Source: Kitasatospora sp. NBC_01287 (GTDB lineage: Bacteria; Actinomycetota; Actinomycetes; Streptomycetales; Streptomycetaceae). Taken from it: a stretch of 64,000 bases of DNA. The position numbers were made by a program, and so were the translations under genes. Position 1 is the stretch's first letter, and each line of letters starts with the position of its first letter. The stretch covers positions 372,001-436,000 of the forward strand of contig NZ_JAPEPB010000001.1 of assembly GCF_026340565.1 (NCBI RefSeq), given 5' to 3'. The notes under the pieces were generated by a model. The model had not been told where the DNA came from. It ran no database searches and saw only the letters and a list, made by a program, of their open reading frames with translations. This document shows positions 21,669 to 44,098 of this stretch, in pieces.

Positions 21669-22310
21669 TCACCGACCCGCCGGGCGCCGCCGCGTTCGGG
21701 GGTGGACCTGCGGTCCGGTGCGCGGCCCCGGTCCGGCGTGGTGCGGGCAGGAGAGCACGACGATCAGCGGCCAGCAGGACTGGACGGTGGTCACCAGCCG
21801 TTCGGCCACACCGGCGGCGCCGTGGTGGTTCAGGGCGATCACGAACCAGAGGGCGCCGAGCAGCATCAGCACGATCACCAGGGCCGCGGGGCCGGGCCGA
21901 AGGGCCCAGGGGGCGCCACGGCGGTGGTCGACCGTCAGGCCCGGCCAGACGCAGAGCAGTGCGAAGCCCACACCGACCGTCACCCCGTGCCGCAGCGAAC
22001 CGCCGTGCTGGGGCTCCTGGAACAGCGCCACCAGGATGGACGCCACGCCGCCGCCCGCCAGCGCGAGCCGGCCGGCGCGCGAGGCGGCCCGCAGGCCGAG
22101 CGCGGTGACCAGGTGGCAGGTGCCCAGACCGGCCAGCGCGGCCACCACCAGCCAGTGGCCCGGGACGTCCTGGGCCTCCAGCGAGCTGATCGTCTGGGTC
22201 GCCGGGTCGTAGCTCGGCCCGCTCAGCATGCCCACCACCACCCAGCCGAGGATCAGCACGAGGGGCGCGCAGGCCGCCGACAGCAGGGCCCACCAGGGGA
22301 TGAGTCGCAT
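21669..22310 (-). CDS. DUF998 family membrane protein
   Basis: 213 residues from ATG 22310, after GGTGGG on the minus strand. Six hydrophobic segments are visible, starting MRLIPWWALLSAACAPLVLILGWVVVG. The conserved DUF998 segment YDPATQTISSLEAQDVPGHW lies between helices 1 and 2, and GLTVDHRRGAPWALRPGPAALV between later helices. The function of the family is unknown. The frame remains open upstream through the heptanucleotide array, but that extension is repeat-derived and not counted. Confidence 0.82.
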   Translation of the reverse strand: MRLIPWWALLSAACAPLVLILGWVVVGMLSGPSYDPATQTISSLEAQDVPGHWLVVAALAGLGTCHLVTALGLRAASRAGRLALAGGGVASILVALFQEPQHGGSLRHGVTVGVGFALLCVWPGLTVDHRRGAPWALRPGPAALVIVLMLLGALWFVIALNHHGAAGVAERLVTTVQSCWPLIVVLSCPHHAGPGPRTGPQVHPRTRRRPAGR

Positions 22311-22402
22311 CTGCCCACCGTAGGTCGCCGTCGGGCGCGCGCCCCTCGCACACGCCAGGGGCCGTGGCGCGGGAGCGACCGCGGCGCTCGGGCGGGCGGG
22401 TG

Positions 22403-22542
22403 GCGGGCGGCGGGCGGCGGGCGACGGGCGACGGGCGACGGGCGGCGGGCGACGGGCGACGGGCGACGGGCGACGGGCGACGGGCGACGGGCGACGGGCG
22501 GCGGGCGACGGGCGACGGGCGACGGGCGACGGGCGACGGGCG
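22403..22542. repeat. Twenty perfect-length heptanucleotide tandem units
   Basis: Unit RCGGGCG (A or G first) repeats exactly 20 times without an indel. The G variant occupies units 1-3, 7 and 15. It lies between the DUF998 gene and the gene remnant at 22596-22844. Because seven is not a multiple of three it cannot be a coding repeat of one peptide unit. One strand is rich in GGG. Confidence 0.95.
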
Positions 22543-22595
22543 ACAGTCAGATGATCGATCGACTCCATCCGTAACGCGCCTCACCGGCTGTCACA

Positions 22596-22844
22596 TCATC
22601 AGAGGCCGACGGCACCAAGCTGGTGCTGGACCCGGCTGCCACGACGGACGACCCCAACGCCGTCAAGAGCGTGCGAGCCGAGACCGCCGAGGCGCTGCGC
22701 CCGGACGGCACCGACGTGCTGGTGACCGCGTTCAACAGCCCGGGCTTCGATGACGCGCCCACCTGCCCGGCACCGGCGCTCACCATGGACCAGCTGAAGG
22801 CGATCGCGCTCAGCCCCAAGTGGCCTGCTGCGCCCTGGAAGTGA
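22596..22844 (+). pseudogene. C-terminal remnant of a secreted-protein-like gene
   Basis: The frame reads SSEADGTKLVLDPAATTDD... and ends SPKW...PWK before TGA. Codon usage is typical, and the pattern ADGTKL...RPDGTDVLVTAFN...LTMDQLKAIALSPKW is that of the last part of streptomycete hypothetical exported proteins. There is no promoter, start codon or signal peptide, and upstream in the frame the sequence is unrelated and quickly degenerates towards the heptamer array. I read it as a 5'-truncated gene. Confidence 0.6.
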
Positions 22845-27783: not shown

Positions 27784-29411
27784 TGACCTCCGCACCCCCT
27801 CCCGCCCGCCCCGGTCCCCCTACCCCGTCCGCCTCGTCCGCCTCGTCCGCCTCGTCCAGCGCCCGCCCGGCCAGGCGCGGTGTGCTCGCGGCGGCGGCCG
27901 TCGTCGGGGCCGGCGCGCTCGGCGCGGCGCTGCTGCTGCCGCCCGGCGACCTGGCGGTGGCCGGTGCCACCGCCCCCTCCTGTCAGGTCAGTTATGGCGT
28001 CAACGACTGGGGTGGCGGGTTCACCGCCAACCTCACCATCAGCGACACCGGCACCGCGCCGATCAACGGCTGGACCCTGGGCTACGCCTACACCGGCACC
28101 CAGACCCTCAGCAGCGGCTGGAACGGCGGCTGGACCCAGGACGGAACCGCCGTCACCGTCACCAGCCCCGGCTGGGCCGCCACCATCAGCCCCGGCGGCA
28201 GCTACACCACCAGTGCCAACTTCAGCTACACCGGCACCAATTCGGCCCCCACCGCCTTCACCCTCAACGGCACGCCCTGCGGTCCGGCCGGCTCCCCCAG
28301 CCCGTCGCCGACGCCCACTCCCACTCCCACTCCCACTCCCACGCCCACTCCCACTCCCACGCCCACTCCCACGCCCACACCCACCGGTCCGCCGAGCACC
28401 ACGGCTCCCGCGCTGCGTGTCTCGGGCAACCGGCTGGTGGACGGCTCCGGACAGACCGTCACCCTGCACGGCGCCAACCGATCGGGCGCGGAGTTCGCCT
28501 GCGTGCAGGGCACCGGGTTCTTCGACGGCCCGGTGGACCAGGCCTCGATCGACGCCATGAAGAGCTGGCACCTGACCGCCGTCCGGATCCCGCTGAACGA
28601 GGACTGCTGGCTCGGGCTCCCCGACGTCAACCCGGCCTACGCGGGCACCGGTTACATCAAAGCCGTCGAATCCTACGTGTCATTGCTGCACCAGAACGGC
28701 CTGAACACCATCCTCGACCTGCACTGGACCGACGGTGCCTACACCGGCAACTCGGCGGGCTGCGCGAGCGCCACCGCCACCTGTCAGAAGCCGATGCCGG
28801 ACGCGGCCGAGGCACTGCCGTTCTGGCGCTCGGTGGCGGGCACCTTCAAGGGCGACGACGCGACCGTCTTCGACCTCTTCAATGAGCCGTACCCCTCACG
28901 CGCCACCGGCAGCGAGAGCAGCGGATGGGCCTGCTGGCGCGACGGCGGGAGCTGCCCCGGAATCGGCTACCAGGTGGCCGGCATGCAGGCCATGGTGAAC
29001 GCGGTGCGCGGCACCGGGGCGGACAACGTCCTGCTGCTGGGCGGGCTGGAGTACGCCAACGACCTGAGCCAGTGGCTGGCCTACGAACCGACCGACCCGC
29101 TGCACGAGTTGGCGGCCTCCTGGCACTCCTACAACTTCAACAGCTGCTCCTCGGCGAGCTGTTGGGACAGCCAGATCGCCCCGGTCGCGGCCGCTGTGCC
29201 GCTGGTCACCAGCGAGCTGGGCGAGAACGACTGCGCCCACGGCTACCTGGACTCCCTGCTGCCCTGGCTCGATCAGCACGGCGCCTCCTACCTGGCCTGG
29301 ACCTGGAACACCTGGGACTGCGCCTCCGGCCCCGCGCTGATCACCGGCTACGACGGCACTCCCACCGCCTTCGGCGCCGGCTTCAAGGCCCATCTGGCCG
29401 CGCTCGGCTGA
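27783..29411 (+). CDS. Secreted GH5 endoglucanase with N-terminal CBM2
   Basis: 542 residues. A Ser/Pro-rich N terminus and ARRGVLAAAAVVGAGALGAALLL form the export signal. A CBM2 (SCQVSYGVNDWGGGFTANLTI to LNGTPC) follows at about residues 64-165, then a (PT)n linker encoded by a hexanucleotide repeat. The GH5 domain starts near residue 207 and has the acid/base glutamate in FDLFNEPYP (about 368) and the nucleophile in VTSELGEND (about 478). It cleaves internal beta-1,4 bonds in cellulose. It lies 69 bp after the GH6 gene with its own CebR-like box at the start codon. Confidence 0.94.
   Translation: MTSAPPPARPGPPTPSASSASSASSSARPARRGVLAAAAVVGAGALGAALLLPPGDLAVAGATAPSCQVSYGVNDWGGGFTANLTISDTGTAPINGWTLGYAYTGTQTLSSGWNGGWTQDGTAVTVTSPGWAATISPGGSYTTSANFSYTGTNSAPTAFTLNGTPCGPAGSPSPSPTPTPTPTPTPTPTPTPTPTPTPTPTGPPSTTAPALRVSGNRLVDGSGQTVTLHGANRSGAEFACVQGTGFFDGPVDQASIDAMKSWHLTAVRIPLNEDCWLGLPDVNPAYAGTGYIKAVESYVSLLHQNGLNTILDLHWTDGAYTGNSAGCASATATCQKPMPDAAEALPFWRSVAGTFKGDDATVFDLFNEPYPSRATGSESSGWACWRDGGSCPGIGYQVAGMQAMVNAVRGTGADNVLLLGGLEYANDLSQWLAYEPTDPLHELAASWHSYNFNSCSSASCWDSQIAPVAAAVPLVTSELGENDCAHGYLDSLLPWLDQHGASYLAWTWNTWDCASGPALITGYDGTPTAFGAGFKAHLAALG
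28311..28385 (+). repeat. Hexanucleotide CCCACT/CCCACG repeat, about 12 units
   Basis: Encodes the Pro-Thr linker of the GH5 enzyme. Such linkers are usual, but this one is nearly perfect at DNA level. Confidence 0.9.
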
Positions 29412-33203: not shown

Positions 33204-33886
33204 CGGCCGGCCTCCTCGGCGCTGTAGCCGATCCCTCGCACGGTGCGGATCGGGCTGGCCGCGCCGAGCTTGGCCCGCAGCTGCGAGACGTAGACGTCGA
33301 CCACCCGGCTGTCGCCGTAGTCGGCGTGGCCCCAGACCTGGGCGCGGAGCTGCTCGCGGCTGAAGACCTGACCGGGCCGGGCGAGCAGGTGGGCGAGCAG
33401 GTTGAACTCGGTGGTGGTCAGCTCCAGCGGTTCGCCGTCGCGGAGCACCGTGCGGCGGCCCGGGTCGAGGCGCAGCCTGCTGGTTCCGAGGACGGCCGAG
33501 GCCGGTGGGCCGGCGGTGCGGCGCAGCACCGCCTTGACGCGGGCGACCAGCTCGCGGGGCGAGAACGGTTTGGTGAGGTAGTCGTCGGCGCCGATTTCCA
33601 GGCCGAGGATCCGATCGGCCTCCTCGTCACGGGCGGTGACCAGGATGACGGGCGTCCAGTCGTCGGCGGCGCGCAGCCGGCGGCAGAAGTCGGTGCCGTC
33701 CAGCCCGGGCAGACCGATGTCCAGGACGATCGCCACCGGCCGCAGCCGTGTGACGGCGGCCAGCCCGAGAATGCCGTCGCTCTCGGTGTGGACGCCGAAG
33801 CCCTCGCGGGTGAGGTAGAGGCGCTGGAGGTCGGCGATGTGGCGTTCGTCCTCCACGACCAGGACGAGGCCCTTGCTCAGTGTCAT
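33200..33886 (-). CDS. OmpR/PhoB-family response regulator
   Basis: 228 residues from ATG 33886. The receiver domain starts GLVLVVEDERHIADLQRLY. The phospho-acceptor aspartate is in AIVLDIGLPGLDGTDF and the switch residues in VTARDEE and DDYLTKPFSPREL. The C-terminal winged helix ends RVVDVYVSQLRAKLGAASPIRTVRGIGY, the DNA-recognition region. The frame stays open upstream to 34045, but that part is repeat-derived. A run of 14-bp repeats directly precedes the start. Partner of the downstream kinase. Confidence 0.93.
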   Translation of the reverse strand: MTLSKGLVLVVEDERHIADLQRLYLTREGFGVHTESDGILGLAAVTRLRPVAIVLDIGLPGLDGTDFCRRLRAADDWTPVILVTARDEEADRILGLEIGADDYLTKPFSPRELVARVKAVLRRTAGPPASAVLGTSRLRLDPGRRTVLRDGEPLELTTTEFNLLAHLLARPGQVFSREQLRAQVWGHADYGDSRVVDVYVSQLRAKLGAASPIRTVRGIGYSAEEAGR

Positions 33887-33897
33887 CTGCCCTGTGT

Positions 33898-33971
33898 CAT
33901 CTGTTCGGCGTCTTCTGCTCGGTGGCTTCTGTTCGGTGGCTTCTGTTCGGCGGCTTCTGTTCGGTGGCTTC
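33898..33971. repeat. 14-bp tandem repeats before the response-regulator gene
   Basis: About five units of TTCTGTTCGGTGGC with small variations, starting 12 bp upstream of the regulator's start codon. This falls in its leader or promoter. The rest of the 33887-34193 gap holds no recognisable gene. Confidence 0.88.
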
Positions 33972-42907: not shown

Positions 42908-44098
42908 TCAGATCGGTACCGGCAGGCCGGCGGCCTGGGCGAGCAGCCGGTAGGAGTCGAGCAGCGCCGCCTGGTCATAGGCGTGGGTGGTGACCAGGAA
43001 CTCGTCCGCCCCGGTTCGCGCGAGCAGCGCGCCGAGCTCGGCGACGACCTGGTCCGGCGTGCCGGCGATGTGCCCGCGGAGCGCCTGCTGGTACGCGGCG
43101 CGCTCACGCGGGCTCATCTCCCGCGCCAGCACCTGCGACACCGGGGCGAGTGGCGGGAACTCCCCGTGGGTGCGGGCGTAGGCGCCCGACCAGGCCTCGG
43201 AGACCAGCAGGTCGCGGGCCGCCCCGGCCGTTTCGGCGACCGCCACATTGCCCGAGACGACCACGTACGGCGCCTCGGCCTGGGCGGAGGGGCGGAACCC
43301 GGCGCGATAGCGCTCGATCGCACCCACCATCGCCTCCGCCCCGCGCAGCCCGCCGATGACCAGCGGCAGGCCCGCCTCGGCGGCGATCCCGGCGCCGGCG
43401 CCGGTGGCCAGCACGAAGGCGGGCACCCGCAGGCCCTCGGCCGGGCGGGCGTGGACATCACCGCGCGCGCCGCGCTCCGGGTCGAAGTAGCCGAGCAGTT
43501 CGGCGAGTTGCTCGGCGAAGTGGTCGGCTGCGTCCTTGTCCCGGCCCAGCGCGCGCCGGATGCCGTCGGTGAACGCCACCGAGCGGCCGAGCCCCATGTC
43601 GATCCGTCCGGGGAAGAGCGAGGCGAGCACGCCGAACTGCTCGGCCACCACCATCGGCTGGTGGTTGGGCAGCATCACCCCTCCGGTGCCGACCCGGATC
43701 CGGGTGGTCGCGGCCGCGACCGCCGCGGCCAGCACGGTGGGCGCCGAGCCGGCCACCCCGGGCACGCCGTGGTGCTCCGCGACCCAGAACCGGTGGTAGC
43801 CGAGCCGCTCCACCTGCTGGGCGAGGAGCACCGTGTCCCGCAGCGCCTGCGCGGGCTGCTGCCCCTGCCTGATCCGGGAGCGGTCCAGCACCGAGAGCCG
43901 GGGCGGGGAGCCGGGCGCGGCGGAGGCGCCGGGCGCGGCGGAGGCGCCGGGCGCGGCGGAGGCGCCGGGCGCGGCGGAGGCGCCGGGCGCGGCGGAGGCG
44001 CCGGGCGCGGCGGAGGCGGCGGAGGCTGCGGGGCCGGGCGCGGCGGCCGGGTCGCTACGGGTGGTCGGGGTCGTCGGCGTGGTCACGTCGAACGTCAA
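42908..44098 (-). CDS. LLM-class (luciferase-like) flavin-dependent oxidoreductase
   Basis: 396 residues as read from TTG 44098; a GTG 12 bases further in is an alternative. The conserved barrel starts at PRLSVLDRSRIRQGQQPAQALRDTVLLAQQVERLGYHRFWVAEHHGVPG. Then TTRIRVGTGGVMLPNHQPMVVAEQFG and PGRIDMGLGRS mark the family of single-component LLM monooxygenases using FMNH2 or F420. The 60 residues before it are a (GASAAP)n repeat from six 18-bp units and are probably disordered. The substrate is unknown. Confidence 0.87.
   Translation of the reverse strand: MTFDVTTPTTPTTRSDPAAAPGPAASAASAAPGASAAPGASAAPGASAAPGASAAPGASAAPGSPPRLSVLDRSRIRQGQQPAQALRDTVLLAQQVERLGYHRFWVAEHHGVPGVAGSAPTVLAAAVAAATTRIRVGTGGVMLPNHQPMVVAEQFGVLASLFPGRIDMGLGRSVAFTDGIRRALGRDKDAADHFAEQLAELLGYFDPERGARGDVHARPAEGLRVPAFVLATGAGAGIAAEAGLPLVIGGLRGAEAMVGAIERYRAGFRPSAQAEAPYVVVSGNVAVAETAGAARDLLVSEAWSGAYARTHGEFPPLAPVSQVLAREMSPRERAAYQQALRGHIAGTPDQVVAELGALLARTGADEFLVTTHAYDQAALLDSYRLLAQAAGLPVPI
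43911..44018. repeat. Six perfect 18-bp tandem units in the LLM oxidoreductase N terminus
   Basis: Unit CCGGGCGCGGCGGAGGCG on the plus strand repeats six times without change. Perfect identity suggests recent expansion. Confidence 0.95.

Follow-up and report, generated by a model that had tools for sequence, protein, structure and literature searches.

The spacer between a gene for a DUF998 membrane protein and a gene remnant in Kitasatospora sp. NBC_01287 is occupied by a tandem array of 20 heptanucleotide units, and it raises the question of whether the number of these units can set the expression of the neighboring gene, as the original prediction had it. We addressed this question through a computational analysis of the 64,000-nucleotide stretch of DNA that carries the array (hereafter referred to as the window), of orthologous loci, and of similar arrays in other genomes.

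Structure of the array and of its surroundings

The array is free of insertions and deletions over exactly 140 bp (20 × 7), as had been expected, and it is perfect in the sense that each unit conforms to the degenerate sequence RCGGGCG; only the first base of the unit varies, between A and G (unit order: GGGAAAGAAAAAAAGAAAAA). Imperfect units extend it by about 13 bp beyond its low edge, and this G-rich flank is a possible seed of the array (Table 1). Tandem Repeats Finder reported the array at 22404-22544 with a period of 7, 20.1 copies, and a score of 254, the highest of 689 rows obtained for a 464-kb sample of the genome (the window and 20 further stretches of 20 kb each). No other tandem run in this sample is as long, and five third-order Markov simulations of the sample contained no perfect repeat with a period of 7 that reached three units. 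The array is far above the chance level and possesses the head-to-tail units of 1-9 nt by which microsatellites are recognized. In the entire 9.49-Mb genome, it is the only RCGGGCG array with at least four units; elsewhere, we found one exact three-unit site and two such sites with one mismatch. The window contains further tandem repeats: an 18-bp unit present in 8.3 copies (43902-44046) attained the second-highest tandem-repeat score of the sample, and a 14-bp unit (TCTGTTCGGCGGCT) is repeated about five times at 33886-33971.

Table 1. Features of the array-carrying locus (positions in the window)
Feature	Position	Strand	Basis
DUF998 membrane-protein gene, 213 aa, ATG at 22310	21672..22310	-	PF06197, E 1.2e-26; start via orthologues
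TACGGT, conserved hexamer resembling a -10 element, 7-12 bases upstream of the DUF998 start codon	22317..22322	-	24/24 sequences
G-rich flank of imperfect units, GGGCGGGCGGGTG, from which the array may have grown	22390..22402	+	sequence; start of G4 motif at 22390
20 perfect RCGGGCG units	22403..22542	+ (G-rich strand)	sequence, Tandem Repeats Finder
C-terminal gene remnant adjoining the array	22620..22844	+	partial match to longer proteins

The distribution of A- and G-type units had been taken as a trace of block duplications. Units 5-12 are indeed identical to units 13-20 (AAGAAAAA), but a repeated mixed block of seven units also appears in one-third of random two-G-unit placements, so that the pattern is a weak sign of such events.

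The neighbors of the array are those that had been named before. Since the open frame on its far side comprises 89 codons and matches only part of a family whose members are usually about 400-500 aa long, it fits a gene remnant; the longer family is present in 56 of 70 genomes of the same genus. A permease gene and a TetR/hydrolase pair, the outer genes of the locus, have separate matches in relatives that do not share the intervening DNA, which marks the locus as a mosaic. Such a mosaic, with the remnant located within about 80 bp of the array, would suit a rearrangement junction at which the DUF998 gene became joined to a truncated gene. However, we found neither an empty nor an ancestral arrangement for comparison, the remnant had no DNA-level match in 60 relatives, and a junction would be compatible with, and not exclusive of, growth of the array by slippage; we consider this explanation of the array extremely improbable. 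On the main contig (8.5 Mb), dnaA has its best match at 4.58 Mb; the window, at 0.37-0.44 Mb, is consequently remote from the origin and belongs to one of the chromosome arms.

A coding role of the array was assessed as well. A frame beginning with an ATG at 22568 passes through the array and remains open for 299 aa, and it would furnish the DUF998 protein with an N-terminus built from a seven-residue repeat. The array, however, is open in all six frames, and the GC content of the three codon positions is 0.83/0.83/0.84 in the extension compared to 0.77/0.56/0.94 in the gene, a difference in composition on which we rejected this role. Furthermore, the orthologues begin with MRL(I/V)P, directly preceded by the conserved core described below, so that the likelihood of a translated array is virtually negligible.

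A conserved promoter-like core upstream of the DUF998 gene

Within the order, 143 of 392 genomes contain homologues of the DUF998 gene. We identified orthologues by genome search and collected the upstream DNA of 34 loci. At 24 of them (this locus and 23 others), similarity to MRLIPWWALLSA allowed automatic placement of the start codon; the other 10 were left out. Six positions before the start codon (G-16, T-12, A-11, G-8, T-7, and G-1) are invariant in all 24 sequences, and C-17 and C-10 are nearly so. Together they form a strongly conserved core of the type CG-N3-TACGGT (22311-22327) directly before the DUF998 start, which is likewise found at the 23 other loci; a similar TAGGGT is present at the corresponding position of one of the ten unplaced loci (L013). 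The core fits a TANNNT -10 element, and transcription is predicted to begin at the ATG or within a few bases of it. Because the element is located so close to the start codon in every placed sequence, a leaderless DUF998 transcript is suggested, and the core appears to be a conserved promoter that yields leaderless mRNA from this widespread, functionally uncharacterized gene. In S. coelicolor, TANNNT is present at 80.4% of the start sites, and leaderless mRNAs originate from 21% of the primary start sites (PMC4895711). Generic scans for sigma-70 promoters and terminators produced no matches, and neither did a search of genome contigs with the DUF998 peptide.

The TACGGT core lies about 80 bp away from the array and is the sole TANNNT on either strand between 22311 and 22700, an interval that comprises the spacer, the array, and 158 bp beyond it. 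While the promoter of the DUF998 gene had been placed in the array or next to it, the comparative evidence thus points to a site downstream of the repeats. Promoter-tuning repeats of the hmwA type are located within the promoter elements or between them; here the putative core occupies 22322-22317, and the array begins only at 22403. Moreover, the 260 bp upstream of the gene are free of period-7 arrays in all 23 orthologues, so that the proposed tuning of DUF998 expression by copy number is not supported by our comparison.

A rheostat, in which the number of units would alter the spacing or topology upstream of the DUF998 promoter and thereby set expression, can draw on the position of the array 93-232 bp upstream of the start codon and on the precedent of hmw1A, a gene controlled by heptamer number (PMC8262952). 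The heptamers of hmw1A are regulatory because they overlap promoter elements, a feature that the array studied here lacks. Given the separate core and the array-free orthologues, we judge such a rheostat to be highly unlikely, although the array may act on a neighboring gene at a distance, through topology, quadruplex formation, or the access of regulators. A striking repeat beside a gene should hence not be equated with a promoter switch when comparison reveals a separate, conserved promoter-like site.

Quadruplex pattern and occurrence of the heptamer in other genomes

The GGG tracts of the array, separated by loops of 4 nt, fit the G-quadruplex pattern (at least four GGG tracts with loops of 1-7 nt). 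When its edge is included, the motif comprises 23 GGG tracts in 151 bp, starting at 22390, the largest number of G tracts among the 167 such motifs in the 464-kb sample. Judged by its sequence, the array is likely to form quadruplexes; base-paired folding was no better than that of shuffled sequences on either strand. Another repeat of the quadruplex type is found at 28306-28384, where an array of the hexamer CCCACT presents 12 GGG tracts on the minus strand.

Exact runs of five ACGGGCG units occur in at least 116 places at unrelated loci of a species-level genome collection; among the matches listed are actinobacteria, proteobacteria, myxobacteria, and others, with representatives, for instance, in Streptomyces, Actinoplanes, Nocardia, Halomonas, and Burkholderia. 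Six or more RCGGGCG units are present somewhere in 15 of 70 genomes of the same genus, and arrays of the heptamer are also found in Kitasatospora sp. MAP5-34 and Kitasatospora sp. GAS204B. One locus of the same genus (L052 of genome G027, positions 1501-2074 in array-strand coordinates) carries 82 perfect GCGGGCG units over 574 bp, far more than the array in the window, with a called gene whose end lies about 8 bp away from that of the run. The reversed heptamer, used as a control, is also common, a count inflated by the all-G form of the unit, which reads nearly the same backwards; the arrays therefore look like a property of G-rich heptamers and not of one particular sequence. Our literature search, beyond whose reach most subscription journals lay, turned up no paper devoted to heptamer arrays of Streptomyces or its relatives.

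At none of the 61 loci with sufficient flanking DNA did the midpoint of the array fall into a called gene, compared to 68% of random points; the simple gene caller used here relies on the GC content of codon positions, and the distances between arrays and genes are accordingly rough. The orientation of the genes surrounding the arrays revealed no clear preference or common pattern. In two genomes of the same genus (G001 and G031), ACGGGCG arrays (L050 and L053) are situated in the spacer upstream of one conserved gene encoding a 209-aa protein. We considered common inheritance of these two arrays, but their flanks do not match each other, and 28 other orthologues of the gene have no array upstream. 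They look like products of independent or short-lived origins, and chance, a shared hot spot, or a lost common origin are possible reasons for their shared location.

Quadruplexes of the G-rich strand might have been selected for a local effect on transcription or replication, in which case the exact length of the array would be irrelevant. The abundance of its G tracts would be in keeping with such a role, as would the in vitro quadruplex formation of GGGNATC heptamers from Xanthomonas and Nostoc (PMC4692102). Yet the array is not conserved at orthologous loci, arrays elsewhere have no preferred orientation relative to genes, and Rehm et al. do not settle what their own repeats do (PMC4692102); we view a selected quadruplex function as very unlikely. 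A broader proposal would regard ACGGGCG-type arrays as a recurrent quadruplex element that emerges time and again in the spacers of high-GC bacteria and influences neighboring genes from a distance, with the 20-unit array as a tunable example; this strikes us as highly improbable.

Origin of the array and comparison with known systems

Very probably, the array is a slippage-grown, potentially quadruplex-forming intergenic heptanucleotide microsatellite that is tolerated and most likely has no dedicated function. Replication slippage would have expanded a G-rich seed that lay between the DUF998 gene and a decayed gene, and the quadruplex pattern of the array's G-rich strand may have aided the expansion; Rehm et al. 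(PMC4692102) quote, as a hypothesis, a connection between heptamers and slippage of the polymerase. The array would be tolerated because it is non-coding and located outside the conserved promoter-like core of the DUF998 gene, where the gain or loss of 7 bp should break nothing. Changes in its length by slippage are plausible, and our best reading is that it turns over fast and, given the absence of conservation, is largely neutral. Slippage growth outside of genes and promoter cores explains all of our observations. If its length proves variable, the array could serve as a marker for strain typing. G-rich heptamer arrays in unrelated spacers of high-GC bacteria lend themselves to studies of how such repeats originate and of how microsatellites stay out of genes.

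The heptamers of the hmw1A and hmw2A genes of Haemophilus influenzae, (ATCTTTC)n, overlap promoter elements and control expression through their number (PMC8262952). The array resembles them in its heptameric unit, its copy number of about 20, and its location upstream of a gene; in contrast, the conserved core lies outside of it. With the GGGNATC-type heptameric quadruplex repeats of up to 26 units that Rehm et al. (2015; PMC4692102) described in Xanthomonas and Nostoc, the array shares the unit length, one G run per unit, the tandem and intergenic arrangement, and the quadruplex pattern. It differs from them in its unit (GGGCGRC), in being a single array in 9.49 Mb where those repeats exist in many dispersed copies, and in showing no preference for four units or for an orientation relative to the gene strand. 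The heptanucleotide repeats of large high-GC genomes (PMC4692102) agree with the array in unit length, intergenic location, and GC-rich genomic setting; there is no essential difference between them, the 20 units being at the long end, and the array is an ordinary microsatellite of an already known kind.
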